Source: Immundisolibacter cernigliae
Lineage (GTDB): Bacteria > Pseudomonadota > Gammaproteobacteria > Immundisolibacterales > Immundisolibacteraceae
Assembly (NCBI RefSeq): GCF_001697225.1
Contig: NZ_CP014671.1
Coordinates: forward strand, 248,001 to 312,000
DNA: 64,000 nt
Direction: 5' to 3'
The translations under genes were made by a program, and so were the position numbers. The notes below the pieces were generated by a model. It made no database searches and was not told the DNA's origin. It saw nothing but the letters and a program-made list of their open reading frames with translations. Shown here in pieces: positions 6,675 to 54,604 of this stretch. How positions within the stretch are numbered: position 1 is the first letter of the stretch; each line of letters begins with the position of its first letter.

Positions 6675-6956
6675 TCAGGGGTCCTCCGACAGTTCGGGGT
6701 AGTGGCGCACGGTCATGTGCGCCGCCATGTGGGGTTTCAGGACCATTTGGTAGTGCATCTGCAGGATCGGATGCATGCCCAGCGCGCCGAGCGCCTCGAT
6801 GTCGCCGCTGGCCAGCGCCGGCGCGCTGGCCGGATCGATGCCGGTTTCCGCCAGCACCGCGTCGCGGTCGGTCAGGTAGCGCTCGCGCAGCGACGGCTCG
6901 TGCACCAGCCGTTCGACCAGCAGGTTCAGGCGTCGGGTCTGGTCGGACGTGCTCAT
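6675..6956 (-). CDS. LigA-type extradiol dioxygenase small subunit (CarBa-like)
   Basis: This is a 93-residue helical protein of the LigA superfamily (LVERLVHEPSLRERYLTDRDAVLAETGI, then ALGALGMHPILQMHYQM). In LigAB and CarBaBb enzymes the small subunit caps the active site of the catalytic subunit. The start ATG at 6956 overlaps the stop of the upstream CarAa-like gene by ATGA, and the catalytic subunit begins one base after its stop. The order oxygenase, small subunit, large subunit, hydrolase is the carAa-carBa-carBb-carC order known from carbazole degraders. Confidence 0.83.
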   Translation of the reverse strand: MSTSDQTRRLNLLVERLVHEPSLRERYLTDRDAVLAETGIDPASAPALASGDIEALGALGMHPILQMHYQMVLKPHMAAHMTVRHYPELSEDP

Positions 6957-8131: not shown

Positions 8132-8149
8132 GCGCGGGGCTCCGGTGTG

Positions 8150-8653
8150 TCAGACGTGGTACAGGTCGAGCGTGGTGTCGAGCAGGTCGTTGGTGACGAC
8201 GATGGTCTTGCCGGCGATGCGCCAGCGACCGGCGTCCAGGCGCAGCGCGTGCCGGTAGCTGCCGGCGTAGGACCAGGTGCGCCGGGCCCGGTACACCTGC
8301 GTGTGCCAGCGCGAGCCGACCTCGGCTGTGGTGTCGTCGCAGGCCAGCACGCGCAGGCTGCCGATCAGGTGCGAGGTGCGCGGCAGCGGCTGGGAGGCCG
8401 GCGAGTCGCCGCGGCTCCAGCGCCAGGCGCGGTCCGACAGCGCCGGACGGCCCTCGATGTAGAACAGCGAGACCGCGTTGTGCGGGTCGTCGGTCAGCCG
8501 GTGTTCGGCGTCCCAGGCCGGCGCCCACAGCACGGCGTCCTCGGTGTAGTGGTCGAGCCAGTCGTCCCAGCGCTGCTCGTCCAGGCAGGCGGCCTCGTCG
8601 AGCACGACCTCGGTCAGTGCCTGCCAGGTGGCGAAATCGGGCACAGCGCTCAT
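8150..8653 (-). CDS. Ring-hydroxylating dioxygenase beta subunit (pair 4)
   Basis: This is a 167-residue SnoaL-like small subunit. Diagnostic pieces are QRWDDWLDHYTEDAVLWAP near residue 28, the tryptophan-rich middle (AWRWSRG), and the C-terminal strands WRIAGKTIVVTNDLLDTTLD. The start ATG at 8653 overlaps the alpha stop as ATGA. Eighteen bases after its stop the CarAa-like gene begins, so the pair and the car-like genes are probably co-transcribed. The pattern is near the benzoate/anthranilate-type beta subunits. Confidence 0.86.
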   Translation of the reverse strand: MSAVPDFATWQALTEVVLDEAACLDEQRWDDWLDHYTEDAVLWAPAWDAEHRLTDDPHNAVSLFYIEGRPALSDRAWRWSRGDSPASQPLPRTSHLIGSLRVLACDDTTAEVGSRWHTQVYRARRTWSYAGSYRHALRLDAGRWRIAGKTIVVTNDLLDTTLDLYHV

Positions 8654-10005
8654 CGCACGCCCGCCGCGTCGGCGCCGCCCATCAACCGCAGCCACTGGTC
8701 GTACTGACTCATGGTGCAGCCCTCGTAGCCGATGATGCCGCTGCTCTCGAGCGGGATGCCCAGCGCGCGGGCAGCCTGGTCGTCGCCGACGGTGCGGTTG
8801 TGCAGGCCAAAGCCGATGAAGCTGTCTTCCGGTTGCGAGCCCAGTGCGCCCTGGTGGCACTGCTCGAATTCCTCGTTGTCATCCGGCGTGCCCATGCCGC
8901 TGGCCATGAAGAACTCCTCGAACTGCCGCAGGCGCCGGCCGCGCTCGTCGGCACTTTCGGTGACCGGCGCCAGGCAGTGGAAGGTGATCTCGGTGCGGTC
9001 CACGGCCACCGGGCGGAAGGTGCGGATCAGCGTGGCCATCTGATCGAGCATGTGCAGGTTGGGATAGACCGACAGGTTGCGGAAGATGCTGGTCATCCAC
9101 TCGGCGCGGGCCGGGCCGAAGTCGGCCTCGAGGCGTTCACGTTGGCGATAGATGGGCCGGTCCTGCGGGTTCGGGAAGCTGAACCAGATGCCGGTATGGC
9201 CGTGACCGAAGGCCCATTGGCTGCCCTGCTTCTGGTGCATGTTGTCGATCTGCATGGTGCGTACTTCGGCCGCGCGCTGGTCCTTGCGCCGTGCCACGCC
9301 GAGCAGGGACTTGTGCGCGTAGTCCGGGTGCAGGCCGTCGCCGCCACCGTTCTCCAGCATCAGCTTCCAGTTGCCGTGGTAGACGCAGGTGGATGCGCCC
9401 GGCAGCACGGTGATGCCGTCCTGGCACTGGTCGACCAGCATGTCGATGAACGTGGCGGCACCGCCCAGGTACTCGGCCAGTGACGGCACGTCCGGATTCA
9501 GGCTGCCGAACACGAAGCCGCGGTAGCTGTCGACCCGGGCGATGCGGTGCAGGCCGACGTCAGCGGGCGAGAAATCGGCCGGATAGCCCTGTTCGGCCCG
9601 CTGCACCCACAGCGCCTTGCCGTCGGCGTCGAAGGTCCAGCCGTGGTAGGTACAGGCGTGGTGCTTGCGGTTACCGCGCTCGGTACGGCACAGGCGCGCG
9701 CCGCGGTGCGGACAGGCATTCAGAAAGCCCTGAATCTTGCCCTCGCCGCTGCGCTGCAGGAACACCGCACGGCGGCCCATCCAGGTGGTGAAGAAGTCGT
9801 ACGGCCGCGGCAGCTGGCTCTCGTGGCACAGGAACAGCCACGAGCCCTCGAAGATGTTCGCCAACTCCAGCTCGAACAGCTCCGGGTCGGTGTAGACCGA
9901 GCGGTTGACGCGGTAGATGCCGTCGTCCGGCCGGCGGTCGAACAGCCCGGCCAGGTAGGCCGCGCTGCTCTTGTCCATCGGTGTGGCCGTGTGTGGTGCG
10001 TTCAT
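8650..10005 (-). CDS. Rieske ring-hydroxylating dioxygenase alpha subunit (pair 4, benzoate/anthranilate-like)
   Basis: The protein has 451 residues. Rieske ligands are C98, H100, C118 and H121, with CTYHGW replacing the commoner CPYHGW. The iron triad is D223-x2-H226-x4-H231. The sequence SYRGFVFGSLNPDVPSLAEYL recalls BenA/AntA large subunits. An AntA-like activity would suit a pathway that releases anthranilate through CarC, but this is inference. I start at ATG 10005 (GGAGAA upstream); the open frame extends a further 29 codons without conserved sequence. The beta subunit overlaps its stop. Confidence 0.86.
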   Translation of the reverse strand: MNAPHTATPMDKSSAAYLAGLFDRRPDDGIYRVNRSVYTDPELFELELANIFEGSWLFLCHESQLPRPYDFFTTWMGRRAVFLQRSGEGKIQGFLNACPHRGARLCRTERGNRKHHACTYHGWTFDADGKALWVQRAEQGYPADFSPADVGLHRIARVDSYRGFVFGSLNPDVPSLAEYLGGAATFIDMLVDQCQDGITVLPGASTCVYHGNWKLMLENGGGDGLHPDYAHKSLLGVARRKDQRAAEVRTMQIDNMHQKQGSQWAFGHGHTGIWFSFPNPQDRPIYRQRERLEADFGPARAEWMTSIFRNLSVYPNLHMLDQMATLIRTFRPVAVDRTEITFHCLAPVTESADERGRRLRQFEEFFMASGMGTPDDNEEFEQCHQGALGSQPEDSFIGFGLHNRTVGDDQAARALGIPLESSGIIGYEGCTMSQYDQWLRLMGGADAAGVR

Positions 10006-10037
10006 GCTGGTTCTCCGGTGCTGTTGACCGCGGCGCG

Positions 10038-11201
10038 TCAGCGGCCGGCGGTCTGGATGCCGCGGTTGTGCTCGCTGGCCAGCTTGCGCCACGCCATGAT
10101 GCAGGCGTCGGCCTCGAACAGCTGCTCCTTCAGCCAGCCCCAGTCGTCCTGGTAGAACGGTTGCGTGGCTTCGCGGGCCCAGATGTCGTCATCGTTGAAG
10201 CCGTGCGCGTACAGGTCCTTCCACAGCGCCTCGTATTCCTCGGCGAACTCGGCGTCGGCATTCGGACCCTCGACCACCTTGGTGGCGCAGTGGATGTACC
10301 AGTGGCTGTCGGCATCGCGCGGCACGTACCACTCGAAGTGGATCATCGCCGGGTCCGGGAACGGGTCGACCTTGAGCACGCCAGGCATCCACAGCGAAAT
10401 CTGGCCGGCGATGTGCTTGTCGCCGCCGTGGATGGCGCGGCGCACCACCTCGCCGTGCACGCTGCCCTCGAAGTGCGGCACGCCGCGCTCGGCCAGCAGG
10501 TCAAACACGCCGATGTTGCCGCCCTCGGTGTGGCGCGTCTCGAACAGCGGCTCCTTGCTGTTCGGATTGGGCGCGAAACCCAGCGGCAGCATGGTCTGGT
10601 TGCCGCGGATCAGGCGCGAGTCCTTGTGGATGAAGATGTGCGTGGTGTCGAAGCCGTTTTCGGCGCCGATGCGCCAGTTGGCGTTTACCACGCGGCGAAA
10701 TGGCTGCACGCGCCGGTCCGCCTCGTCGAAACCGGGCGGCAGGTCGCGTGCCAGCGGCGTCGGCTCGATGTCGCCCAAAAACACGAACACCAGACCCTTG
10801 AGCTCCTGCGCCGGGTAGGTCTTCAGCGAGCGGGTGCCGATCATCTTGCTCGACGGATCAGTCAGGATGTCGCACAGCTTTCCGTCGGCCCACTGGTAGG
10901 TCCAGCCGTGGTACCAGCACGAGATGGTGTCCTTGCTGTAGCACTCGAGTTTGCGCGACAGCGGCACGCCGCGGTGCAGGCACTGGTCCTTGATGCAGTA
11001 CAGCTTGCCGTCGATGCGGTTGATCAGCAGCTTCTCGCCGCCCAGCTGGAACGGCACCGGCTGGCCCTCGGCTACCTCGCTGCTGTTCAGGGTCGGGTAC
11101 CAGTGATTGCGAAAGCCGAGCTTGGCCTCGGCATAGCCGCGCCAGCCGCGGATGCGGTCCAGGACTTGGGGGTCGACCAGGGGGACAGTAGGTGTGTTCA
11201 T
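10038..11201 (-). CDS. CarAa-type (angular) Rieske terminal oxygenase, copy 2
   Basis: This is a 387-residue paralogue of the oxygenase at 6953-8131, sharing long identical stretches (AKLGFRNHWYP, CIKDQCLHRGVPLSRK, CDILTDPSSKMIGTRSLKTYP) but diverging elsewhere, so it is an old duplication. Rieske ligands are C74, H76, C95 and H98, and NGFDTTHIFIHKDS is intact. Its C-terminal part (FEADACIMAWRKLASEHNRGIQT) is even nearer to CarAa of carbazole degraders than copy 1. No beta subunit is adjacent, as expected for a homotrimer. It lies between the NagG-like alpha gene and dioxygenase pair 4. Confidence 0.87.
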   Translation of the reverse strand: MNTPTVPLVDPQVLDRIRGWRGYAEAKLGFRNHWYPTLNSSEVAEGQPVPFQLGGEKLLINRIDGKLYCIKDQCLHRGVPLSRKLECYSKDTISCWYHGWTYQWADGKLCDILTDPSSKMIGTRSLKTYPAQELKGLVFVFLGDIEPTPLARDLPPGFDEADRRVQPFRRVVNANWRIGAENGFDTTHIFIHKDSRLIRGNQTMLPLGFAPNPNSKEPLFETRHTEGGNIGVFDLLAERGVPHFEGSVHGEVVRRAIHGGDKHIAGQISLWMPGVLKVDPFPDPAMIHFEWYVPRDADSHWYIHCATKVVEGPNADAEFAEEYEALWKDLYAHGFNDDDIWAREATQPFYQDDWGWLKEQLFEADACIMAWRKLASEHNRGIQTAGR

Positions 11202-11253
11202 TGGCTGTTCGTCCTTGAATGCGAATGCTGTTGTGGCGTGCTTGGGGGAGGGA

Positions 11254-12510
11254 TCAGAGGCCCATGAGGCCCCGGTAACCGCGCCAGAAGGAGCGGATCA
11301 GTGCCTCGTCGACCAGGCTGTCGGTGTTTTCCATGCCGCGTCCGCCCAGGGCGTCGTAGGCGAACCCGTCCGCAGCGCCGACGATGCCCTGCTGCACCAG
11401 TTGCGTGGCCTCGCCGTCCTCCATCGAGATGTAGCCGGCCGGACCGACCAGGTTGGCCTGCTTCAGGCGCATGGCGCGCAGCTCGGGGGTGTCGTCGGCG
11501 TAGCCGAAGAAATGGAACACCAGCTCGAAGGCATCCACGCCCTTGGGCACGATCTGACGCACCGCCAGGGTGTTGTGGATCTGCTGCAGCACCATGCTGG
11601 GGAACAGCGACTGGATGTGGTTGGTGAACACCGGCTCGAGTTCCGGATGCACGTCCAGCAGCGACGGGTCGGCCAGCGTCACGCCTTGGTCATAGGTCCG
11701 GATCTTGCCGGTCTTGTACTCGCCGATGTCCTCGTTTTCGATCTTCCAGGCACGCAGGATGCTGTGCATGCCGTGCTCGCCACCGAGGGTGCAGCCGCCG
11801 CCCATGGACGAGCGGTACACGCCAAACGTGGCGTGGAACAGGTGCAGCAGGGACGCGTGGTACGGATCCTTGGTGTTCTCCGTGTACAGCTTCCAGTTGG
11901 AGTGGATGTACTGGCGCGAGGTGCCCAGGAATTCCACCGGCCCGGTGAACACGCGGTCCACCCAGTGCAGCATGTCGGGTCCGAAATAGGTTTCGAGCGG
12001 CGGCGTGGCGTCCGAGAAACTCGCGTAAACAAGCCCCTTGTAACGGGCCACGCGCAGCTTGCGGGCACCATGCTCGGCCATCTGGAAGTCGGCCGGATAG
12101 CCGCCCTTGCCGCCCAGGCCTTTGCGAAACGGCACGCCGATCAGGCTGCCGGCGCTGTCGTAGGCCCACTGGTGATAGACGCAGGTGTGGGTCTGGCTGT
12201 TGCCACGCAGCTCGCGGCACACCAGCGCACCACGATGCGCACAGCGGTTGACCCAGGCGTGGATTTCGCCCTCGCCGTCGCGCGTGACGACCACCGGCGT
12301 TTCGCCAATAAAGGTCGCCTTCCAGTCGAAGGGCTTGGGAATCTCCGCTTCCAGCGCCACGAAACTCCAGGTCGGACCGCGAAAGATGCGCTCCTGCTCC
12401 AGGGCGAAGACGGCCGGGTCCGAATAGACCCAGTAGGGAACCTGGACCACGTCGTCGGGCCAGGCATAGTCGGACAGATCGGACACGGCAGGCATGTGAG
12501 GCTGGTTCAT
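11254..12510 (-). CDS. NagG/AndAc-type Rieske oxygenase alpha subunit without an adjacent beta gene
   Basis: The protein has 418 residues. Rieske ligands are C90, H92, C110 and H113; the second motif is CVYHQW, as in salicylate 5-hydroxylase (NagG) and AndAc-type anthranilate dioxygenases. The triad is D215-x2-H218-x4-H223 in TENTKDPYHASLLH. The opening VPYWVYSDPAVFALEQERIF and the ending LIRSFWRGYRGLMGL also match that group. Such enzymes act on anthranilate or salicylate, the products of CarC-type hydrolysis. Relatives need a beta subunit, but the next gene is a CarAa paralogue. The lone NagH-like beta at 19305-19778 is the obvious partner. Confidence 0.86.
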   Translation of the reverse strand: MNQPHMPAVSDLSDYAWPDDVVQVPYWVYSDPAVFALEQERIFRGPTWSFVALEAEIPKPFDWKATFIGETPVVVTRDGEGEIHAWVNRCAHRGALVCRELRGNSQTHTCVYHQWAYDSAGSLIGVPFRKGLGGKGGYPADFQMAEHGARKLRVARYKGLVYASFSDATPPLETYFGPDMLHWVDRVFTGPVEFLGTSRQYIHSNWKLYTENTKDPYHASLLHLFHATFGVYRSSMGGGCTLGGEHGMHSILRAWKIENEDIGEYKTGKIRTYDQGVTLADPSLLDVHPELEPVFTNHIQSLFPSMVLQQIHNTLAVRQIVPKGVDAFELVFHFFGYADDTPELRAMRLKQANLVGPAGYISMEDGEATQLVQQGIVGAADGFAYDALGGRGMENTDSLVDEALIRSFWRGYRGLMGL

Positions 12511-25198: not shown

Positions 25199-26396
<1,198 letters not shown>

Positions 26397-26399
26397 GGG

Positions 26400-26789
26400 T
26401 CAGCCGCCCTGGCCGCGTGACTTCGCCACAAAACGCACACCGGGCAGGCCTTCGAAGTCGGCATCCTGGGTCCACAGCAGCGCGTCAAAGCAGCGAGCGG
26501 TGGCGTAAATGACCGAATCGGCAAGCGCGAGCCGATGATCCACACCCAAGCGCGCTGCCGACAGCGCCAGTACGGAATCCAACTCGACCACCTGGCCTTG
26601 CCGCATCAGCGCCACGGCTTGAAGGGCATCGCCCTCCCCCCGTTGCTGCAACACCCGCTTGAAGACCTCCAGCAGGGATAGTGTCGGGACAACCAATTGT
26701 TCCGTATCGAGGATCGCCGACGCAAAGAACGTGGCGTTGGGTCCATCGGCGAAATACTCCAGCCAGCCGGACGAATCAACCAGGTTCAT
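26400..26789 (-). CDS. vapC: VapC-type PIN-domain toxin inside the cas operon
   Basis: This is a 129-residue PIN-domain ribonuclease. The acidic active-site residues are D5 (LVDSSGW), E41 (SLLEVFKR), D91 (LADSVIYATA) and D109/D111 (TQDADFE), the full VapC set. VapC toxins cleave specific RNAs, often initiator tRNA or the rRNA sarcin-ricin loop, when VapB is degraded. Its ATG at 26789 overlaps the VapB stop as ATGA. It lies between cas6e and cas1 on the operon strand. The active site is complete, so it should be functional. Confidence 0.9.
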   Translation of the reverse strand: MNLVDSSGWLEYFADGPNATFFASAILDTEQLVVPTLSLLEVFKRVLQQRGEGDALQAVALMRQGQVVELDSVLALSAARLGVDHRLALADSVIYATARCFDALLWTQDADFEGLPGVRFVAKSRGQGG

Positions 26790-26992
26790 ACCCGATCGGC
26801 TTCCCGCGGCACGTCCGTGTCGATGCCGCGCAGGAAGCCGCGTGCCTCGCGCATATCCTGCACCGGAACGAACTCCGCACGCCCCTCGTAGACGATCACG
26901 TCGAGCTTCTGCCCCGGCTTGATTTGCAGCGACTCCCGCACCGCCTTGGGAATCACCACCTGATATTTTTCGGACACGGTTACAGTCGTCAT
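26786..26992 (-). CDS. vapB: AbrB/MazE-fold antitoxin (VapB) paired with VapC
   Basis: This 68-residue protein begins MTTVTVSEKYQVVIPKAVRE, then SLQIKPGQKLDVIVYEGRAEFVPV, the swapped-hairpin AbrB DNA-binding fold. The C-terminal tail (MREARGFLRGIDTDVPRE) is the likely toxin-binding part. Such antitoxins repress their own promoter. It has AGGAG 8 bases before the ATG and a promoter-like sequence at 27023-27051. The preceding cas6e stop is 85 bases away, the largest gap in the cas operon. Confidence 0.9.
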   Translation of the reverse strand: MTTVTVSEKYQVVIPKAVRESLQIKPGQKLDVIVYEGRAEFVPVQDMREARGFLRGIDTDVPREADRV

Positions 26993-27022
26993 ACAAAACT
27001 CCTATCGATGCCAGATCGGTGG

Positions 27023-27051
27023 ATCATAGTGGGCCATGGCTACAGCGACAA
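27023..27051 (-). promoter_or_regulatory. Sigma-70-like promoter for vapBC (and cas1-cas2)
   Basis: On the minus strand TTGTCG (27046-27051) and TATGAT (27023-27028) are separated by exactly 17 bases. The -10 box matches the consensus at five of six positions. VapB starts 31 bases downstream behind a strong ribosome site. If active, it would uncouple vapBC-cas1-cas2 from the interference genes. Confidence 0.6.
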
Positions 27052-27077
27052 CGATGGCCACAAATGGGCGCACGCGG

Positions 27078-27776
27078 TCAGCATCGCCGCACCAACAGCA
27101 GCCCGCAGCCGAAGGCCTTGGCAGGGCCGATGCCCGTCGTGAGGGCAGATCGGAATCGGTCGGGATCGGTCACGGTGAGCACGCCGGAGAAATCCACGGT
27201 GGAGAAGCGTAACTGCTGTGTCCTGGGCAGATGACGCCGTTCCGAATGCGTGAGGTAACCGTCCACACGCAGAGCGTCTTCATCCACCAGAAACCCATGG
27301 GCCTCTGCGCGGCGGATAAGCCAGTGCCGACAGGTGCGGTCCACGAGATCGTAAAGTTGTGGCTTGCCGGCATCCTGCCACTCGGACCAGTTGTTCAGTC
27401 CTCGTTCTTGCAGTAGGCGCTTTTTCTCCGCCATCACCACGTCGTCGCGCCGGGCTTTCCCATCCCTTTTGCTTGTGACAATCGGGTTGGCCCGCAGATC
27501 AAAGCGCAGGCGCGCGCCGCTGTCGAGCTCCGGGGCATAGTCCCGAGTCTGTACGAACCAGGCCGCATCGGGACTCATCGGCGGCCGCCCCGACACCAGG
27601 TAGTAACGGGACGCGCCTTCCACCTCACGGTGACAGAACAGGAAGTCACGGTTGGCATCAGGCGCGCCAGGAAAAAAGCGCCACAGCCACTGATGCTCCT
27701 CGTACGGACCGAGGGCGCGTGCCTGGGCTGCGTCGCGCTCGCGACCCGGCGCGGGAGAAATCAGGCTGAAATACAT
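27078..27776 (-). CDS. cas6e: CRISPR crRNA endoribonuclease Cas6e
   Basis: The 232-residue protein of the Cas6e/CasE family opens MYFSLISPAPGRERDAAQAR, with PDANRDFLFCHREVEG matching the E. coli PDAARDFLFHVEKR region. The putative catalytic histidine is H28 in YEEHQWLW. RFDLRANPIVTSKRDGKARR and the C-terminal glycine-rich GIGPAKAFGCGLL are family hallmarks. It cuts the pre-crRNA at each repeat stem. I start at ATG 27776, as in homologues, rather than at a TTG two codons upstream. Two bases separate it from the cas5 stop. Confidence 0.95.
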   Translation of the reverse strand: MYFSLISPAPGRERDAAQARALGPYEEHQWLWRFFPGAPDANRDFLFCHREVEGASRYYLVSGRPPMSPDAAWFVQTRDYAPELDSGARLRFDLRANPIVTSKRDGKARRDDVVMAEKKRLLQERGLNNWSEWQDAGKPQLYDLVDRTCRHWLIRRAEAHGFLVDEDALRVDGYLTHSERRHLPRTQQLRFSTVDFSGVLTVTDPDRFRSALTTGIGPAKAFGCGLLLVRRC

Positions 27777-27778
27777 GC

Positions 27779-28537
27779 TCAACCCTCCCCGGCCAGAATG
27801 GCGACGTGTTCAGTGCGGTCACCGAACTGCCAGCCACTGCGCCGGATGATGCGATCCTTGCGGGAGGCGGACAGGTCCGCTGGGGTGCCCGCCGTCACGC
27901 CGTCGCCCCAGACCAGTCGTGCCAGCCTAGCCGGGGATTCCAGCAACGGACGCCCCCACCTGTCGGTCTGCTCGGCGAGGCGGTTGACTAGCTGTTCCCG
28001 GTACGTCTCAAAGGCAGCCAGGGCCGACTCCGCCTCGATGATCTTCGGATGCAAAGGCGCGGCAGGCGGGCAGGATTTGCGGCCCAGATAGAGCACGAAC
28101 CGCGGACGGGCCAGGGCAGCCGCCACGGCGGGCAGGTCGCGGGGTGCGTCTGCAAGCGGCTGGACCGCGATGAGATAGCCGACGTTCTGCCGGTAGTCGC
28201 GGGTGGAAAGGATGGTGTTGAGTTCATCCTTGGGCACGGCCAGTTCATCCCGGCGCGTGGCATGGGGCCGCTTCTTCAGCGCGGCCCGACCCGGCACCTG
28301 CGCCGTGTGGTAGTCGCGCAGCAACGTGCCTTGCGACAGCACCCCTACTGCGAAGCCATAGCCCTGGCTCAGCGCCGCGTGGGCAACGTCATCCTCGCGC
28401 CGGATGCCAAGCGCCGCGCCCAGCAGGCCCACCAGTGCCGACTCGCCCGGCCAGTTGTGACTGCCGCGGTACTCGCCGACGGCGGTGTCGCCCCAGGCGG
28501 CAAGCGGCGCTTGCAGTTGAAACACCAGAAAGGCCAT
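27779..28537 (-). CDS. cas5e: Cascade subunit Cas5e
   Basis: The 252-residue RAMP protein opens MAFLVFQLQAPLAAWGDTAV, then GEYRGSHNWPGESALVGLLG, the standard Cas5e start. RDYHTAQVP and the C-terminal DRWGRP region also fit. Cas5e holds the 5' handle of the crRNA and caps the Cas7 backbone. The ATG at 28537 has AAGGGGG 6 bases upstream. The cas7 reading frame runs 149 bases into this gene because no cas7 stop occurs at the junction. Confidence 0.94.
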   Translation of the reverse strand: MAFLVFQLQAPLAAWGDTAVGEYRGSHNWPGESALVGLLGAALGIRREDDVAHAALSQGYGFAVGVLSQGTLLRDYHTAQVPGRAALKKRPHATRRDELAVPKDELNTILSTRDYRQNVGYLIAVQPLADAPRDLPAVAAALARPRFVLYLGRKSCPPAAPLHPKIIEAESALAAFETYREQLVNRLAEQTDRWGRPLLESPARLARLVWGDGVTAGTPADLSASRKDRIIRRSGWQFGDRTEHVAILAGEG

Positions 28538-29606
28538 GGTCAGCCCCCTTGATGAAGTCGGCCAGTTCAGCGAGAGAGCCTTCGCCAGTTTCAACGTTGA
28601 AGGTGTAGCGGGCGTCGGCGCAGGCGCCATAGACCTTGTCGAAGTTGTCACGGCGCTGGGTGAGCGCGCGGACCGAATTTTCGAACAGGTCGTGATCCTC
28701 CCCTCCCCTGACTGGCTTCAGGAAGGCCTGCGCGAGCGAGCGCGGCTGCTGATCGCCCTTTTCAGCCAGTGCGTAGACGGCATAGGCGCGCGAGGCGAAG
28801 CTGTTCTGCATGCCGGTGGGCGAGACCTTGGCGATGGCGTGGGCCAGAGCCTCCAGCGTGCGTTCGGTCAGGGCCGCATCGCCGCCCAGGTTTTCACGCA
28901 ATTGCTCCCGGTTGATGCACAGGTACAGATAGAACAGCCCGGCGCCGTAGCCACGCTCGCCGATATGGCCGGCGCCGGCATCTTCGACCCCCGTGTTGAG
29001 ATCGTCCACGGCGCTGAAATAATCGTCTTCTACCGCCGCCTTGTGGACGGTGAAGGCGTGGGCGACCTGGACGGCGGCTTCCATGTTGTAAGCCGGCGCG
29101 TCTGCCAGCATGCGCCCGAACATGGCGATGTCTGCCGCCTGCTGGGGCTTGCGCAGCAATTTCAACTCATCCTCGGTCGGGACGCTGTTACGGCTCACAC
29201 AAGCGGCCGTCAGCGCATCGATGGCTGCGCGCTCCTCCGGGCTGAAATGGGCGAGCTGCTCGATTTCCAGATCCTCATCGTGCTCGGTTTTCTTGTCGGA
29301 CTTGAGCTTGCCGAACTGGCCCGCAATGGCACGTGCCCACTCCCGCGCGGCCTTTTCCCGAATGCCTTTCTCTCGCAGGGTTTTGAAAATCTCCGCACCC
29401 ATGCGCTTGGTGCGCGTACCGATATGGCCGGCGAGCGCGGTCTCGAAGATATCCGAGGTGCGCCATGCCCGCTTGAGGCTCTGTGAGGAAATGCGCAGGC
29501 GCAGGGCTTCACCCACCAGCGCGGTCTTGGGTCGACCGGTGTCGTCGCGGTTCAGGTTGGCCGGCGGATAGCTAGTGAGCAGGTGCAATTGAACGAAACG
29601 GCTCAT
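28389..29606 (-). CDS. cas7e: Cascade backbone Cas7e with an abnormal C-terminal extension
   Basis: Residues 1-354 are a normal Cas7e: MSRFVQLHLLTSYPPANLNR, QSLKRAWRTSDIFE, HAFTVHKAAVEDDYFSAVDD and GERGYGAGLFYLYLCI. Six copies form the Cascade backbone along the crRNA. The family usually ends about here (E. coli 363 residues), after the ADFIKG region. In this sequence the frame continues for 51 arginine- and glycine-rich residues that are merely another frame of cas5. One extra G in the run at 28544-28548 would create TGA directly before the cas5 start, so a one-base deletion or sequence error is likely. The start at ATG 29606 has GGGAGA. Confidence 0.9.
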   Translation of the reverse strand: MSRFVQLHLLTSYPPANLNRDDTGRPKTALVGEALRLRISSQSLKRAWRTSDIFETALAGHIGTRTKRMGAEIFKTLREKGIREKAAREWARAIAGQFGKLKSDKKTEHDEDLEIEQLAHFSPEERAAIDALTAACVSRNSVPTEDELKLLRKPQQAADIAMFGRMLADAPAYNMEAAVQVAHAFTVHKAAVEDDYFSAVDDLNTGVEDAGAGHIGERGYGAGLFYLYLCINREQLRENLGGDAALTERTLEALAHAIAKVSPTGMQNSFASRAYAVYALAEKGDQQPRSLAQAFLKPVRGGEDHDLFENSVRALTQRRDNFDKVYGACADARYTFNVETGEGSLAELADFIKGADHGLSGVSTASAACRLGRHRRRRVPRQSQLAGRVGTGGPAGRGAWHPARG

Positions 29607-29637
29607 GAATCGAATCTCCCTTTGTCGAAAATGAAAA

Positions 29638-30147
29638 TCAGTCGGTCTTCTTGGCGGGCCACGCGTAGGCATAAGCCCAGGCTTTCTTGACCTTGTCGCC
29701 CCAATACACCACGTCGTCAGCTAGCGCGGTGATGCTGATCTGATGCTCGATCAGCGGCAGCGCGCGCCGCAGACCGCTGAACAGGGCATCGAGATCCGGG
29801 GCCTCCAGCAACCGTTGAAAGCGTAACGGGCTGACCGGTGGCCGACCCTCACCGCTGTCGTCCCTGCTCATGGCCTGCGCCGGCGACTGGTCGCCATCGG
29901 TCTTCACATGTGCCAGCAGGCCGATCACGGCAGCCAAACGGTCATTGAGCGGGGATGCTCCCTCGACATCCCAACCGGCCTCGCGCAGTCGCCGGTAGGC
30001 GCGCTGGTAGGCCGGCGTCAGGCTGACGGCGGTGATGTCGTGGGCGCGGCGCAGTTCGGCACGCGCCGCACGGTCGTCGTCCAGTCCGCTCCACCAGCCG
30101 CGCAGGGCAGAGGCAAGACGGGGGTTCTTCCGAAAGTCGTTACTCAT
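29638..30147 (-). CDS. casB: Cascade small subunit Cse2 (Cas11e)
   Basis: The 169-residue helical protein has Cse2 features: RGWWSGLDDDRAARAELRRA at the N-terminus, DRLAAVIGLLAHV in the middle, and FQRLLEAPDLDALFSGLRRA, then LPLI, near the C-terminus. Two copies line the belly of Cascade and stabilise the crRNA and target strand. The start is ATG 30147 with GAGGGAGG upstream. It overlaps the tail of cas8e by a few bases less than 20 in the open frame, consistent with an operon. Thirty-one bases follow before cas7. Confidence 0.93.
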   Translation of the reverse strand: MSNDFRKNPRLASALRGWWSGLDDDRAARAELRRAHDITAVSLTPAYQRAYRRLREAGWDVEGASPLNDRLAAVIGLLAHVKTDGDQSPAQAMSRDDSGEGRPPVSPLRFQRLLEAPDLDALFSGLRRALPLIEHQISITALADDVVYWGDKVKKAWAYAYAWPAKKTD

Positions 30148-30158
30148 GCGTCCCTCCC

Positions 30159-31775
30159 TCAGGGTTGTGCGTGCGCCGCGTTGGCCGACCGGGTTTTGTC
30201 GGCGACAGGCAAGCCCAGCGCCGCGCGAATTTTCTTGCCGTCCAGATTGCGCTGGAGCTGACGGTAGGCCTCGGCGGCACGGCGCGGGTTCTGGCGCTCG
30301 ATGGCACCGGCACCGACGAACTGGGTGTCGAACAGATCGACCGCGACTCGCCGCAGGCGCGCGAGCCAGGCCTGGGCGACAGCCAGGTGATCGATGTCGC
30401 CATCCAGCCGCGCCACCTCGATCAGCTCCCGCAACTGCCGGTAGAAATCGGCCTCGCTCGCGCTCCAGAAACTGGCATCCAGCACGCTGAGGTCGCCTCG
30501 CGCCTCGTCGCCGAACCAGGCATCCTTCACCGCGCTGCGCAGAAAAAAGGCCGCCAGGCTGGCCCCGGCCAGCCACTGGCGGACTTCTTCCTCAACTCGC
30601 CTCTGGGCATCCACATCGCATTCGTTCAGGCCATACAGCGGCAGGCTGGCCTCGTACCAGCAGCGGGCCTTCATGTTGTCCATGTCGTAGCCGAAGGCCC
30701 ACAGCCGAAGCTGCCCGTCCAACACACCCCGACCGGAAGCCAGCACATGACTTACCACGCGCGCCCGGCGCAGGGCCTTGTTGGACTCCATGGCCGCACC
30801 CAGTACCCAGCCCAGCCAATGGCGGTAGCCGATGCCGCCCGGCTGCGGATGCATCGCGCGCCATTCGTCCTTGTCTTGATAGTAGGGCGACAGTGGATGA
30901 TCCCAGGCGCCCTTGTAGTTGAGGCCGTAGTTCTTGGTGACGTACTGGCGGACAAGTCGGTCGGACGCGCGGCCACACAGCGGACAGATGCCGGATTCCG
31001 TCTGCTCAAAATCGAGCCGGATGCGGCGCGGCATGGCCCAGAAGACATGGGCGGGGTGCACCTGAATCGGTGCCAGCTCCCCCTTGTCCGTTTGCAGCGC
31101 GGTGATGCCGGCGAGCCAGGGAAATGTGTAGTGCGGCTCCGTCAAGGCGCGCTCGCCGCTGTGGTCGAGAAATGCCCCTTGTTCGCGCACGTTCAGCCAC
31201 AGGTCGTGCCACAGGCTACGCGGCGGCTGGCAGGCCACCAGCGTCGTAAGTGGCCCGCCACCACGCAGCCCGGTGCGATGGCCAGCACCACCAGACGGCG
31301 CATTGATTTGCAATGTCAGCAGCGCAGTTGCCGTGCAATGGAGGCAGATTGCGTCCGCCTGCCCGCGCTTGATGAAATGGTCGGCGTTGTTCTTAAGCGT
31401 CTGCTCGCCCGGTGCCTCGATCAGCAGTGCGCTGACATCGTTCACCGCGCCTTCGTCAGGGCGCAGGGTGCGATCCTGCATAAACCGTGGCCCGTCGCCA
31501 TCGAGATCAAACGCCGTCTGCACCGGCGTGAACCATTGCGCCAGCGTCTCGGCCGTCGGTGGTCTGCGGAACAACTCCCGCCATTTCGTATTGGTCTCGA
31601 CCGGCGCGGTGGTTTGCAGCAGCCCGATGGCAAACTGCGCCAGCGCGCCGTTGAAGTCCGGCCGGTCGGCGTCGAAGGCAACCAGCGTCGAATCGGACAA
31701 CGCCGTCGGCGCAATCCAGGTACGGCTGCCATCGGCACGGCGCACCGGCAGCCAGGGTTCTTCGAGCAGGTTCAT
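30159..31775 (-). CDS. casA: Cascade large subunit Cas8e (Cse1/CasA)
   Basis: The 538-residue protein opens MNLLEEPWLPVRRADGSRTW, the standard Cse1 N-terminus. It contains the PSGGAGHRTGLRGGGPLTTL segment, a cysteine pair (CPLCGR near residue 282) and a C-terminal four-helix part (EEVRQWLAGASLAAFFLRSA). Cse1 recognises the PAM and recruits Cas3. The ATG overlaps the cas3 stop as ATGA. Eleven bases separate its stop from cse2. Confidence 0.95.
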   Translation of the reverse strand: MNLLEEPWLPVRRADGSRTWIAPTALSDSTLVAFDADRPDFNGALAQFAIGLLQTTAPVETNTKWRELFRRPPTAETLAQWFTPVQTAFDLDGDGPRFMQDRTLRPDEGAVNDVSALLIEAPGEQTLKNNADHFIKRGQADAICLHCTATALLTLQINAPSGGAGHRTGLRGGGPLTTLVACQPPRSLWHDLWLNVREQGAFLDHSGERALTEPHYTFPWLAGITALQTDKGELAPIQVHPAHVFWAMPRRIRLDFEQTESGICPLCGRASDRLVRQYVTKNYGLNYKGAWDHPLSPYYQDKDEWRAMHPQPGGIGYRHWLGWVLGAAMESNKALRRARVVSHVLASGRGVLDGQLRLWAFGYDMDNMKARCWYEASLPLYGLNECDVDAQRRVEEEVRQWLAGASLAAFFLRSAVKDAWFGDEARGDLSVLDASFWSASEADFYRQLRELIEVARLDGDIDHLAVAQAWLARLRRVAVDLFDTQFVGAGAIERQNPRRAAEAYRQLQRNLDGKKIRAALGLPVADKTRSANAAHAQP

Positions 31776-34540
31776 GGGTCCTCCACATCGGGAATCGAAT
31801 CTTGTTGGCGCAAACCGCGGGCATCGTCATAGTGCCAAACGAGGCGTCGCTCCCCCGCACTGCGCGTTGGCGCAGCCCAAGCCTCACCCACCCAGCCGGC
31901 GGCGGCACCCTCCAGCGGCAACAGCACCGACCAGCGGCCCTTCGCAGGCAGCGTTTCAAGCGCAGCTTCAATCGCTGCCTGGCGCGCTGGCGACGACGGT
32001 TCCACCGCCCGCGCAATCAGCCGCTCGGCCACCCGCACGGTGCTGTAGGCCCAGGCATGGCGCCGCTCGGCGTGCTCAGCCCAGGGCAACAGCGCATCGC
32101 CGTCCCAACGGGCCAGCACCACATCCCGCGTGGCCTCGCCCAGGCGCGATGGCACCCTGGCGTCGCTCCACCAGTCGGTACCCTCGCGGGTATAGCCGGA
32201 AGCGAAAGTGACGGTGTTGGCCTGTGCCATGCTGGCATCGGCAAAACCCTTGGCATCAGCCCGGTCGGCACTGCGCTGCAAACCCTCGGGAATAGGCTCG
32301 CGGTCACCAAATACGCCTTCGATGAGGTCGCGCGCATCATCCGGCATCGCGTAATGACCGGCGCGCAAGGCCTTGGCGGTGAGCCAGATCTGGCCGTGAT
32401 GCGGATAAACGGCGGCGGGACCGCGAAAGGCTGCCTTGAACCAGTCCGCGTCGGGATCGTCATGCCATGCGGGTCCAAAAACCCACAGACAAGGCTCGCC
32501 CCGTTGATCCTGCGCTGCGGGCGCGGTCAGGCGCGCCCCACGCGCATCGCGTACATGCCGGTGCAGGCGGCCGGCGCGCTGGATCACCCGGTCGATGGGG
32601 GCGAGATCGGTCACCACCAGATCGAAATCCACATCGAGCGACTGCTCAACCACTTGGGTTGCAATCAGCAATTGGCCCGCGCGCTCGGCGGGACCACTTT
32701 CGGCACCAAAGCGGGCGAGCACGCGCTTTTCGATTTTGAGGCGGTCTTGCAGCGCAAAGCGGGCATGGAACAGCGTCAGCTTGTCGTCTGGGAGGCTGAC
32801 GTGAAAACGTTCATAGGCGGCCAGCGCATCAGCCACCGTATTGCGCAGCCAGCACACACACTGCCCGGCGGCGAGTGCGCCTTGGATTCGAGTCACGACC
32901 TCGGCTTCGGAATCAGCGTAGCGCACGGCGACCCGCCGGCACAGGCTGGCGCGTGTGGCGAGCGGCGTTTCGGTGAGGGTGTGCGGCGCAGCGGCCGACC
33001 AGGATGTGGCCAACGGATAGGCGGCTTGCGCCAGTGCGGGCGCCCGAGCCTCACCGCACCCACGGCTGAAGGCATCGAGCAGTGTCCGCTTCATGGCCTG
33101 CGGCAGCGTGGCGGAGAGCAAAATTGCGCTGCCGCCAGCGCGGGCGTGAAAGTTGAGCACCGTTGCCAGCACGCGCAGCATGTAGGCATCACAGGCATGC
33201 ACCTCGTCCACCACCAGCACCTTGTGCACCAGTCCCAACAGGCGAAGCGACTGGTGCTTGCTTTGCAGTGCCGAGAGCAAAACCTGGTCGAGCGTGCCCA
33301 CACCGGCTGGCGCCAGCAACGCCCGCTTGTTGTGATCGGCGAGCCAGGCCGCGCAGCGGGCGGATGCGCTTTCATCCTGCTGATGCGGGTCGTGTTCGGC
33401 GCGATCCGCCGGCAATACGGACGCCGCGAAGGCTTCCACTAGATTGCGGCTGCCGTGGGCCAGCGCCATGCTCGCCCGGTTCGCGAACAGTCGGCCATAG
33501 ACCTGCGCGATGCGGTCGTACATGGCATTCGCAGTGGCCATGGTCGGCAGGCCAATGAAAAATCCATCACCGTTCCCACTCGCCATCAGTCGATGGGCGA
33601 GCAACACGGCCGCTTCGGTCTTGCCGGCTCCGGTCACGTCTTCGAGCAGGTGAATTTGCGGCCCGGCATGCAAAGACACGCTGCCCGCCCAACGCTGCAA
33701 TGGGGACGGATCGGCAATATCCCGGAACAGCGCCGCAAAATTCAACTCGCCCGGCATCGCGATCGGCAGCACCTCGGCCACGGCGAGCGCGTGCTTTGCC
33801 CGCTCGCGCGCCTGCGGCCAATAATCGGCAAGCGGAATGCCGGAACGATCATAGGGAAAGAAAGCAGTGTTGGAACCGAGCCAGTCGGCCAGTACCGCAA
33901 TGCCGGCCATCCACCAGGACAGTTCCTTGCTGGCGAGTTCAAACTCGGTTGCGCTCATCCGGTTCGGGATTGCGGATGCGGCTTCGTCGAGCAGCAGTGC
34001 CCGCACTTCACCGATGAAGCTGACCACCGCGTCGCGGTCCGCACGCCGGTCGCAGTGCGTTTCCCAGAAGCCGCCCGGCTCCGGCGGCTGGCCGTGATGG
34101 CCCGTTACCGCCTGTGCCCAGGAGTCCAGCCCGTCGCCGTACTCGGCAGTGTCCACGCCGAACCAGCTCTCCTGACAAGCGATCCTTCGAACTGGGCCGG
34201 TCCAAAGCAGCCAGCCGACACTGTCGTGACGCAGCGTATAGGCCTTGGCGGGGTCTCTTCCTCGCAGGGCCTGGAACAGGTCGGCGCGCTGCCCCTGAAA
34301 ACTCTCAGCGAACTTGCCCAGATCGTGCAGCGCCAGCCAGAAGGCAATCCAGCCGATTAATCCTTGTTCGTCACCCAGACGCTGCGCGAACAGCTGTCTG
34401 ACCGCAGGCGCACGAGCCAGGTATTCCACTCCAACTGCCGCCACATCCAGGCAGTGATAGGCCAATGGGTGCCACTTGGGTTCGCCGGGATAATTGGGAT
34501 CAGCCTTGCCCCAGTACGAAAGGCTGTGCAGCGGTGTCAT
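31772..34540 (-). CDS. cas3: CRISPR helicase-nuclease Cas3 (HD + DExH)
   Basis: The 922-residue protein has an N-terminal HD nuclease with H29 in PLAYHCLDV, the HD pair in LALHDLGKFAES and a further RHDSVGW. An SF2 helicase follows, with Walker A TGAGKTEAAV, DEVHACD (DExH), the motif III region ILLSATLP, and motif VI QRAGRLHRH. Cas3 unwinds and degrades target DNA after Cascade binds. The length matches I-E Cas3. The start ATG 34540 has AGGA 7 bases upstream. It is the first gene of the cas operon. Confidence 0.96.
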   Translation of the reverse strand: MTPLHSLSYWGKADPNYPGEPKWHPLAYHCLDVAAVGVEYLARAPAVRQLFAQRLGDEQGLIGWIAFWLALHDLGKFAESFQGQRADLFQALRGRDPAKAYTLRHDSVGWLLWTGPVRRIACQESWFGVDTAEYGDGLDSWAQAVTGHHGQPPEPGGFWETHCDRRADRDAVVSFIGEVRALLLDEAASAIPNRMSATEFELASKELSWWMAGIAVLADWLGSNTAFFPYDRSGIPLADYWPQARERAKHALAVAEVLPIAMPGELNFAALFRDIADPSPLQRWAGSVSLHAGPQIHLLEDVTGAGKTEAAVLLAHRLMASGNGDGFFIGLPTMATANAMYDRIAQVYGRLFANRASMALAHGSRNLVEAFAASVLPADRAEHDPHQQDESASARCAAWLADHNKRALLAPAGVGTLDQVLLSALQSKHQSLRLLGLVHKVLVVDEVHACDAYMLRVLATVLNFHARAGGSAILLSATLPQAMKRTLLDAFSRGCGEARAPALAQAAYPLATSWSAAAPHTLTETPLATRASLCRRVAVRYADSEAEVVTRIQGALAAGQCVCWLRNTVADALAAYERFHVSLPDDKLTLFHARFALQDRLKIEKRVLARFGAESGPAERAGQLLIATQVVEQSLDVDFDLVVTDLAPIDRVIQRAGRLHRHVRDARGARLTAPAAQDQRGEPCLWVFGPAWHDDPDADWFKAAFRGPAAVYPHHGQIWLTAKALRAGHYAMPDDARDLIEGVFGDREPIPEGLQRSADRADAKGFADASMAQANTVTFASGYTREGTDWWSDARVPSRLGEATRDVVLARWDGDALLPWAEHAERRHAWAYSTVRVAERLIARAVEPSSPARQAAIEAALETLPAKGRWSVLLPLEGAAAGWVGEAWAAPTRSAGERRLVWHYDDARGLRQQDSIPDVEDP

Positions 34541-37743: not shown

Positions 37744-38832
37744 ATGTCCGCACCTTCACGCGCCGCGCTGTTCGATCTTGACGGCACGCTGCTGGATTCC
37801 ATCCCGGCGTTTCTTGCCATCACCCGTCGCGCCTGCCGCGAGCTGGGCTGGCCGCAGCCGGCGCCCGGCTACATTCGCGAGGTGATGACGCTGGGCCGCT
37901 CGCCCATCGAGGCATTGCTCGGGCCGGTCGCCGATGCCGACGCCCGACACCGTGCGTTGAGCGCCGCCAGCCAGAACCTCTGGAAGGAGGTGTTCGCCGC
38001 GGAGGCGCGCCTGTTTCACGACACGCTGTCGGTACTGCAACGGCTGGCGGCCACGGGCTGGCGCCTGGGCATCGTCACCGACTCGAATCACTTCGTGGTC
38101 AGCCGGCTGACCGAAGCTCCCGGCTGCCCGCCAATCGACGTCATCGTCACGCGCGACGAGGCACCGGCCCGCAAGCCTTCGCCCAGCGGCATCGAGCTTG
38201 CCCTGCAGATGCTGGGGCTGGCGCCCGAGGCCGCAATCTACGTCGGCGACAACCCGATCGACATCAAGGCCGCCCACGGCGCCGGCGTGCGGGCCTTTGG
38301 CATCACCACCGGCGCTTCGCGGCGCGAGGATCTGCTGCCGCACAACCCATATGCGGTGCTCGATTCGCTGACGCAGCTGCACGCCCACCTGGCTGACACG
38401 GCCCCCACGCCCACGGCCACGGTGCGCGGTGAACTGGTCAGTGGGCTTGGTGAGGCGAGCGGCTTTCTTGCCATAAGCTGGGTGCGTGAGGCCATCGAAG
38501 CCCGGCTCGGTGGCCCGTTCTACCCAGGCACCATCAACCTCGCCGCCGACACCGACGGTGCCGCGCTGGCGGCGCGCCTGCGCCACGACGTAAGGCTGCA
38601 GCGTTTCGAACTTGCGGCGCGCGATGATTTTTGCCCGGCGCTGCTGCATGCGGTGGAGTTGTCGCACCGCGCCATGCGCACCCCGGCGCTGCTGCTGTGG
38701 CCGCAAGTACCCGGTTATCCGGACGACAAGCTCGAACTGATCTGTCCCATTCCGCTGCGCACCGGCTGGGCGCTGACCGACGGCGTTGTGCTGGACGTGC
38801 GCTACCTGACCCTGGAGGAACCCTGGCCATGA
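37744..38832 (+). CDS. HAD-like hydrolase fused to a DUF120 (CTP-dependent riboflavin kinase-like) domain
   Basis: The 362-residue protein has two domains. Residues 1-215 are a HAD phosphatase: FDLDGTLLDS (D11, D13), GIVTDSN, a lysine in ARKPSPSG, and YVGDNPIDI. Residues about 226-353 match the archaeal CTP-dependent riboflavin kinase family: RGELVSGLGEASGFLAI, LGGPFYPGTINL and PGYPDDKLELICPIPLR. Archaeal RibK phosphorylates riboflavin to FMN using CTP. A HAD domain can hydrolyse phosphate esters, including riboflavin precursors or FMN, so a joint flavin role is possible but unproven. The stop overlaps the next ATG as ATGA. I do not recall this fusion being described. Confidence 0.85.
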   Translation: MSAPSRAALFDLDGTLLDSIPAFLAITRRACRELGWPQPAPGYIREVMTLGRSPIEALLGPVADADARHRALSAASQNLWKEVFAAEARLFHDTLSVLQRLAATGWRLGIVTDSNHFVVSRLTEAPGCPPIDVIVTRDEAPARKPSPSGIELALQMLGLAPEAAIYVGDNPIDIKAAHGAGVRAFGITTGASRREDLLPHNPYAVLDSLTQLHAHLADTAPTPTATVRGELVSGLGEASGFLAISWVREAIEARLGGPFYPGTINLAADTDGAALAARLRHDVRLQRFELAARDDFCPALLHAVELSHRAMRTPALLLWPQVPGYPDDKLELICPIPLRTGWALTDGVVLDVRYLTLEEPWP

Positions 38833-52590: not shown

Positions 52591-53556
52591 TCAGACCACG
52601 CCCAGCTCGCGCAGCTTGCTGCGAATCTTGTCCTTGAACGCGTCGGAAGCCTCGCGCACCGGCGGCATGATGCGCCCGGCATTCAGGCCCAGTTCCTCGA
52701 ACCACACCTTGATGCCGGCCAGCGCCGAGGCATAGGTCGCGGTCTGCACCACGGTCCACAGGAACACGTCACCGTAGAAATCGCGCACCGGGTTCAGCTT
52801 GTCGGACACGGCGCGGGCTTCTTCCCACTTGCCCTCGGCCGCCAGCGCACGGTATTGCTTCACCAGCGGACGCAGCTTGCCGTACAGGATGTAGGACAGC
52901 TCGCCCCACACCACCTGACCGCCCAGACGCAGGTCTTCCAGGAACACCGACTCCAGCGGGTCGGAGACGATGAAGTCCTTGCGCAGGTCGTGGCGCAGCT
53001 TGAGCGTCTCGGCGCGGATCAGGTGGCCCTGCTTGACCGCCACCACGGTATCCAGATCCGCCAGGCGGCGCATCAGGTCAAAGCCCAGCACCTTGCCGGA
53101 CACCGGCGTGCGGTACAGGCAAACGGCCAGGTCCGTGCGATCGGTCAGGTACTTGAACCAGTCGAAGATTTCATCGTCGGTGCGCAGCTGCACCACCGGG
53201 TTGATGACCTCGGCGCCTTCGAAGCCCAGCTTCTCGACGTAGTTCATCTTCTCGATCGCTTGGTGCACCGACGGGTCCAGGATGATGGTCCACAGCGGAA
53301 TCTTGCCGCGGGCGGCCTCGGCCACCACCTGGTGGTACTTCAGCCACTCGCCGAGCGTGACGTTCCAGCACTCGGCAATGAAACCGCCGACCACCAGACC
53401 CTCGACGCCCATGTCGATGAACTTGTCGATGTTCTCGCGCAGCTTCGGGTAGTCGAACTGGAAATCGTTGCCGACCGGGCTGATCGGGCACATGTAGAAG
53501 CCCTTGATCGTTTCGGTAGCCCAGGCCTTGGCGTCCTTGCGACTGTAATCTGGCAT
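52591..53556 (-). CDS. DapA-superfamily aldolase/hydratase-like protein, copy 1
   Basis: The 321-residue TIM-barrel protein belongs to the class I dihydrodipicolinate synthase/N-acetylneuraminate lyase superfamily. The catalytic tyrosine is in CLYRTPVSGK and the Schiff-base lysine in VVAVKQGHL. The superfamily includes hydratase-aldolases of aromatic catabolism such as NahE, which release pyruvate, so a role in an aromatic pathway is plausible but not shown. It lies 37 bases after its paralogue. Confidence 0.83.
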   Translation of the reverse strand: MPDYSRKDAKAWATETIKGFYMCPISPVGNDFQFDYPKLRENIDKFIDMGVEGLVVGGFIAECWNVTLGEWLKYHQVVAEAARGKIPLWTIILDPSVHQAIEKMNYVEKLGFEGAEVINPVVQLRTDDEIFDWFKYLTDRTDLAVCLYRTPVSGKVLGFDLMRRLADLDTVVAVKQGHLIRAETLKLRHDLRKDFIVSDPLESVFLEDLRLGGQVVWGELSYILYGKLRPLVKQYRALAAEGKWEEARAVSDKLNPVRDFYGDVFLWTVVQTATYASALAGIKVWFEELGLNAGRIMPPVREASDAFKDKIRSKLRELGVV

Positions 53557-53593
53557 GACTGCGTTCCTCCAGGATTGATATTGCGGGGCCGGC

Positions 53594-54556
53594 TCAGACC
53601 AGGCCCAGTTCCTTGACCTTGGCGCGGATGTACTCGGCGCGCTCGTCCGACACCGGCCGCACCGGCGGGATCATGCCGCCAGCCTTGAAGCCGAGCGCCT
53701 CGAACCAGACCTTGACGCTGGCCACCGCGCCGGCGTAGGTCGCCGTGCGCACGATTTCCCACAGCAGGATTTCGCCCAGGAACTCGCGCACCGGGTCCAG
53801 CTGCACGGAGACCGCGCGGGCCTCTTCCCACTTGCCCTGCGCCGCCAGCGCGCGGTACTGGTCGATGAGAGTGCGCTTCTTGCCATAGGCCAGGTAGGAA
53901 ATCTCGCCCCAGCAGATCTGCCCGCCCACGCGCAGGTCTTCCAGGAACACCGCCTCGGACGGGTCCGACACGATGAAATCCTTGCGCAGGTCGTGACGCA
54001 GCTTGAGCGTCTCGGCACGGCTCAGGCTGCCCTGCTTGACCGCCACGCAGGTGTCCAGATCCGCCAGCCGGCGCATCAGATCAAAGCCCAGCACTTTGCC
54101 GGATACCGGCGTGCGGTACAGGCACACGGCCAGGTTGCTGCGGTCGGTCAGGTACTTGAACCAGTCGAAGATTTCATCGTCGGTGCGCAGCTGCACCACC
54201 GGGTTGATGACCTCGGCGCCTTCGAAGCCCAGCTTCTCGACGTGGTTCATCTTCTCGATCGCCTGATGCACCGACGGGTCCAGGATGATGGTCCACAGCG
54301 GCAGGCGGCCCTTGGCGACATCGGCCACGATCTCGTGGTAGCGGTACCAGTCCGACAGGGTCAGGCTCCAGCACTCCGAGATGAAGCCGCCGATCACTAG
54401 GCCGTCGATGCCGACATCGATGAACTTCTCGACGTTGTAGCGCAGCGCCTCCTCGTCCATCTTGCCGTCTTTGACGGGGCTGATCGGGCACTGGTAGAAA
54501 CCGGTCAATTTCTTCAAGGCCCAGGCCTTGGCGTCTTTGCGGTCGAATTCGAGCAT
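53594..54556 (-). CDS. DapA-superfamily aldolase/hydratase-like protein, copy 2
   Basis: This 320-residue tandem paralogue shares an exact central block with copy 1 (LWTIILDPSVHQAIEKMN, EGAEVINPVVQLRTDDEIFD, VSGKVLGFDLMRRLADLD). The active-site tyrosine (CLYRTP) and lysine (CVAVKQG) are kept. The ends differ (GGMIPPVRPVSDERAEYIRA here). The start ATG 54556 has GGAG. The two copies may form a heteromer or act on related substrates. Confidence 0.83.
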   Translation of the reverse strand: MLEFDRKDAKAWALKKLTGFYQCPISPVKDGKMDEEALRYNVEKFIDVGIDGLVIGGFISECWSLTLSDWYRYHEIVADVAKGRLPLWTIILDPSVHQAIEKMNHVEKLGFEGAEVINPVVQLRTDDEIFDWFKYLTDRSNLAVCLYRTPVSGKVLGFDLMRRLADLDTCVAVKQGSLSRAETLKLRHDLRKDFIVSDPSEAVFLEDLRVGGQICWGEISYLAYGKKRTLIDQYRALAAQGKWEEARAVSVQLDPVREFLGEILLWEIVRTATYAGAVASVKVWFEALGFKAGGMIPPVRPVSDERAEYIRAKVKELGLV

Positions 54557-54604
54557 GGCACGCTCCTTTGTGCGGGTGCTTACGGGGTGGAACACATCAA
54601 AATG

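Follow-up and report, generated by a model that had tools for sequence, protein, structure and literature searches.

A HAD phosphatase–DUF120 fusion protein in Immundisolibacter cernigliae and its possible link to prenylated FMN

What would a bacterium do with a CTP-dependent riboflavin kinase-like domain of the archaeal type (DUF120), and why would such a domain be joined to a phosphatase? The question is raised by one gene, P0001, in the window analysed here, a 64,000-nucleotide stretch of the Immundisolibacter cernigliae genome. The initial annotation, made from the sequence alone, had read this gene as a fusion of a HAD phosphatase with a domain bearing the archaeal RibK signature, and had suggested a bifunctional or self-opposing flavin enzyme, or a kinase/phosphatase acting on another small molecule.

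The fusion itself is borne out (Table 1). The open reading frame is present, Pfam HAD_2 matches residues 9-186 of its product (E=1.9e-30), the DUF120 profile search that had been proposed returned PF01982 (CTP-dep_RFKase/DUF120) on residues 232-352 (E=4.7e-13; 49.6 bits against a gathering cut-off of 25), and the archaeal RibK MJ0056, whose structure has been solved, was found both with the whole protein (E=3e-6) and with the DUF120 domain alone (5.8e-7). The mechanically called frame opens further upstream, at 37582; the start adopted here is supported by the sister-genus homologues, which open directly with the HAD domain. An AlphaFold2 model of P0001, with six family members as input (mean pLDDT 86), contains a low-confidence linker at about residues 218-223 and is thus consistent with two domains. 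This model matches HAD phosphatases, and in a Foldseek comparison of the whole model with the PDB, all of the best 50 matches listed belong to the HAD superfamily, so that this comparison bears on the HAD half.

Table 1. Positions of the fusion gene, its domains and motifs, and the downstream gene in the window
Feature	Position	Strand	Length or residues	Remarks
HAD phosphatase–DUF120 (RibK-like) fusion gene, P0001	37744–38832	+	362 aa	
HAD-IA phosphatase domain, Gph/PpaX-like	37759–38388	+	residues 6-215	
DUF120 / CTP-dependent riboflavin kinase-like domain	38419–38799	+	residues 226-352	
GLGEAS	38443–38460	+	residues 234-239	Counterpart of MJ0056 GLGEGR loop, by alignment
GTIN	38527–38538	+	residues 262-265	T263/N265 align with MJ0056 T43/N45
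YPDDKLELICPIPLR	38716–38760	+	residues 325-339	E331 aligns with MJ0056 E107
P0002	38829–39278	+	149 aa	ATG overlaps the fusion stop (ATGA)

The HAD-DUF120 protein is encoded as a single unbroken frame in all six Immundisolibacteraceae genomes with a DUF120 domain (that of I. cernigliae included); the only other family genome, which yielded no DUF120 match, is 60% complete. Because the same unbroken fusion recurs in six family genomes, contamination, an assembly artefact or a frameshift fusion was ruled out. The family homologues are 44-95% identical to P0001, and the closest named relative, from an Immundisolibacter MAG, shares 73% identity across the whole protein. The remark in the initial annotation that such a domain is unusual in a bacterium agrees with the sampling: among 369 genomes sampled from the class, DUF120 was found in seven, counting that of I. 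cernigliae and also G180 and G216, which match the profile only in part. A second sample, of 398 genomes from across the phylum, contained it in one genome besides that of I. cernigliae, and the domain is accordingly rare in Pseudomonadota. A short, weak DUF120-like protein of another type is encoded at L031:8261-8815 in another proteobacterium (G491), beside an undecaprenyl-diphosphatase-like gene.

The three RibK-type motifs quoted in the initial annotation are present in P0001, as are, by alignment with MJ0056, the CTP-binding and Mg-binding residues, so that neither of the results named there as a refutation was obtained. T263, N265, E331 and R339 are invariant across the six family members, and the counterparts of MJ0056 T43, N45, E107 and R115 are kept in every bacterial sequence aligned. 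In MJ0056, we take the GLGEGR loop to bind the nucleotide, T43 and N45 to be Mg ligands, and T99 and E107 to contact the flavin; the LR of YPDDKLELICPIPLR aligns with the C-terminal nucleotide-binding segment. We aligned 13 bacterial DUF120 domains with five archaeal RibKs. The Thr that the archaeal proteins have at the position of T99, near the following His, is replaced in all 13 bacterial ones, and the Glu of E107 is kept throughout. The bacterial domains (13/13) carry a Cys after an aromatic residue (FC type) where the archaeal ones carry Gly, as well as a YP with a basic residue ahead of the conserved Glu (YPxxK), and in the tree a single branch with support of 100/99 separates the two sets. 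Judged from these residues, the Mg and nucleotide sites of P0001 look intact and part of the acceptor site looks changed. The domain is thus homologous to that of MJ0056 (PF01982), with the GLGE loop and the GTxN, E and LR positions in common, but P0001 differs in its HAD fusion, its FC/YPxxK signature, the lack of Thr at the T99 position, an identity of 27%, and scores below the NCBIfam RibK equivalog cut-offs (32.5 versus 168 bits for NF040694 and 33.3 versus 279 for NF010762). We infer riboflavin as the acceptor, and the use of CTP; for riboflavin, caution is due because these scores lie far below the cut-offs and the presumed flavin-contact position differs from that of archaeal RibK.

The same low scores, together with the replacement of GLGE by GLGV in the members of the fusion family from the sister genus g2, would also fit a degenerate or regulatory DUF120 domain devoid of kinase activity and tethered to a housekeeping Gph-like phosphatase. 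We regard this explanation as improbable, since the catalytic residues are kept across 44-95% identity and in stand-alone relatives.

A kinase of this kind would not be needed for general flavin supply. The initial annotation had proposed a check for ribF, and an ordinary RibF is encoded in the Immundisolibacter genome, separate from the fusion: a 313-aa frame carries the PF01687 flavokinase domain at C1:2286328, and its N-terminal half reads, by eye, as the usual FAD-synthetase domain (SIGNFDGVHLGH). Thus, the DUF120 domain is not the sole flavin kinase of the cell and is not needed for bulk FMN/FAD, and the possibility that it substitutes for a missing RibF was ruled out.

The gene neighbourhoods of bacterial DUF120 domains point to UbiX and UbiD. 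In all three genomes of g2, ubiD (product PF01977, E=1.2e-53), the HAD-DUF120 gene and the P0002 homologue follow each other on one strand, with ubiD directly 5' of the fusion. At all five loci from Burkholderiales and Rhodocyclales, the start of a stand-alone DUF120 gene overlaps the stop of ubiX, the flavin prenyltransferase gene, within a phenylphosphate carboxylase cluster; at the four Burkholderiales-type loci (L004-L007), its first codons lie within the 3' end of ubiX, and UbiD genes, a KdsC-like HAD gene and, in three of the four, a flavin reductase-like gene lie upstream. The annotated cluster on plasmid pAZKH of Azoarcus sp. KH32C comprises PEP-synthase-like genes, a CBS gene, ppcB, ppcD, ppcA, ppcG, and genes for UbiD, UbiX, DUF120 (WP_015451796.1) and a NUDIX protein. 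In a third lineage (G014), again within a phenylphosphate carboxylase cluster, the DUF120 gene directly follows ubiD, and that for UbiX lies further down the cluster. The stand-alone proteins are of the same bacterial DUF120 type as P0001 (37-40% identity with the Burkholderiales copies) but, unlike P0001, have no HAD fusion. In the Azoarcus phenol cluster, the NUDIX gene that immediately follows DUF120 (L035:15431-15976) encodes an N-terminal zinc-ribbon-like stretch; its product is possibly an FAD pyrophosphatase like AtNUDX23, which would likewise yield FMN.

Neither ubiD nor ubiX was found beside the fusion in its own window (both neighbours) or in its own genus. The Immundisolibacter genome encodes five UbiD paralogues, including, elsewhere, a 73% identical orthologue of the g2 UbiD (L017), and one clear UbiX. 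Because ubiD and ubiX genes number only about two per thousand genes in this genome, their direct adjacency to DUF120 in three separate arrangements is not, by this informal estimate from gene density, a chance pattern.

On balance, and with guarded confidence, we favour the reading of P0001 as a two-domain flavin-nucleotide enzyme dedicated to prenylated FMN (prFMN), in which a DUF120 riboflavin kinase would be paired with a HAD phosphatase of the same pathway. The DUF120 domain would be a monofunctional riboflavin kinase, probably using CTP, that forms FMN and, unlike RibF, stops short of FAD; UbiX would then prenylate this FMN into the cofactor on which UbiD-family (de)carboxylases depend. 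The HAD domain would act as a phosphatase within that pathway. Its likeliest substrate is either FMN, whose hydrolysis would adjust the balance between riboflavin and FMN, or the riboflavin precursor phosphate, whose hydrolysis would provide the kinase with riboflavin. We infer the HAD substrate, as well as the prFMN role in Immundisolibacter, where the gene sits apart from ubiD and ubiX. Of the initial suggestions, the bifunctional flavin enzyme is the best reading, with the ubiX/ubiD linkage and a reversed fusion (see below) supporting a flavin role; the link to prFMN is an addition to that annotation.

Two other explanations were considered. A riboflavin kinase combined with an FMN hydrolase could set the general FMN pool, as in plants, with no tie to prFMN; the isolated position of the Immundisolibacter gene would fit, and so would the partnership of activities, which equals that of the plant enzyme AtFMN/FHy. 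This is nevertheless unlikely, considering that the bacterial-type DUF120 is repeatedly linked, in differing arrangements, to ubiX or ubiD in three lineages. Alternatively, DUF120 might phosphorylate a hydroxyl-bearing aromatic compound for a UbiD carboxylase and HAD might dephosphorylate it, in the manner of phenylphosphate synthase and the delta subunit of phenylphosphate carboxylase. Such a pair would agree with the adjacency to ubiD in the relatives, with the HAD subunit (ppcD) of phenylphosphate carboxylase clusters, and with the ring-hydroxylating oxygenase genes in the window, but ppcD encodes a different, KdsC-like HAD, and phenol is phosphorylated by the products of PEP-synthase-like genes (phenylphosphate synthase), which are present as separate genes near DUF120 in those clusters and leave no such job for it there. 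We therefore consider this explanation very improbable.

Two stretches of the window, 6953-12510 and 52591-54595, contain genes that fit an aromatic hydrocarbon degrader: several for Rieske-type ring-hydroxylating oxygenases and two adjoining ones for dihydrodipicolinate-synthase-like proteins (hydratase-aldolases). A type I CRISPR-Cas-like gene set (cas1-like to cas3-like) occupies 25476-34540, immediately left of pepN.

The HAD half of P0001 has all four motifs of its superfamily (D11xD13, T112, K144 and GD169xxxD173), with D11, D13, T112, K144, D169 and D173 invariant in the family. It shares its fold and motifs with Gph/PpaX-type HAD-IA phosphatases and falls below every NCBIfam equivalog cut-off. 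The two domains also occur in reversed order, DUF120-HAD, in an unrelated proteobacterium (G120), with both matches significant and no ubiD found within ~10 kb; searches around G120 and G014, each the only sampled genome of its order, yielded no additional members. Between the forward and the reversed fusion, the HAD domains share 30% identity, which is not above the identity of about 34% that either shows to ordinary Gph-like paralogues, and a single origin of the two fusions is therefore disfavoured. From these identities, HAD was probably recruited to DUF120 twice, separately, which lends weight to the view that the DUF120 kinase benefits from an accompanying phosphatase.

A comparable combination exists in plants. 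The hydrolase half of AtFMN/FHy belongs to the HAD superfamily, the domain order is that of P0001, and the kinase half is of the RibF type (PF01687). A Pfam search found no PF01687 match in P0001, and the kinase halves of the two proteins, RibF-type and DUF120, would be convergent rather than homologous. FMN hydrolase and riboflavin kinase are fused in one chain in the plant enzyme (Sandoval and Roje 2005, cited in PMC9678776), as we propose for P0001. By analogy, a self-opposing pair of FMN kinase and FMN phosphatase, the other half of the initial suggestion, is possible.

The departure of the bacterial domains from the archaeal ones, with the 100/99 branch and their own signature (FC, YP with a basic residue, no Thr at T99), also leaves room for another substrate of the prFMN pathway: DUF120 might convert a prenyl alcohol to dimethylallyl phosphate (DMAP), or phosphorylate a prenylated flavin, and HAD might remove the corresponding phosphate, as in a conversion of DMAPP to DMAP. 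Some UbiX enzymes do use DMAP (PMC6541611); O157 UbiX accepts DMAP or DMAPP, and AnUbiX is DMAPP-dependent. Immundisolibacter UbiX has His at the position of PaUbiX F181, as O157 UbiX does, and the UbiX of the phenol clusters has, by eye, Gln there, like AnUbiX, although this position is not the sole determinant. The residue at the F181 position thus does not require a step from DMAPP to DMAP, which weakens the case for HAD as an obligatory supplier of DMAP to UbiX. Given, in addition, that the clear homologue of known activity, MJ0056, is a riboflavin kinase, we consider this alternative rather doubtful.

Downstream of the fusion, P0002 starts within the fusion stop codon, suggesting translational coupling, and a homologue occupies this place in all six family members. 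Among the 369 class genomes, P0002 was found only in Immundisolibacterales, including one genome (G357) that has no HAD-DUF120. P0002 has no Pfam or NCBIfam match, and its model (pLDDT 90) shows a weak resemblance to TRAPP/H-NOX/YslB-like folds; its assignment as a known enzyme was dropped on these grounds. The model is compatible with what is possibly a small-molecule-binding domain.

In the literature searched, which covered a minority of subscription papers, we found no work that connects riboflavin kinase to either prenylated FMN or phenylphosphate carboxylase, and among the papers naming both "riboflavin kinase" and "UbiX", none is, by its title and abstract, about such a link. We judge the chances to be about evenly balanced that the bacterial DUF120 proteins form a distinct kinase subfamily, tied to UbiX/UbiD and twice fused to HAD, that performs an unrecognised dedicated step of prFMN synthesis, either as a private FMN supply or by phosphorylating an intermediate of that pathway other than riboflavin. 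If so, prFMN synthesis in aromatic-degrading proteobacteria would have a dedicated kinase step encoded beside UbiX, which would explain why bacteria that possess RibF retain an archaeal-type kinase and would offer a route to test a better prFMN supply for UbiD decarboxylases. P0001 would then parallel, in a bacterium, the flavin enzyme of plants that combines phosphatase and kinase, although its kinase comes from another family.
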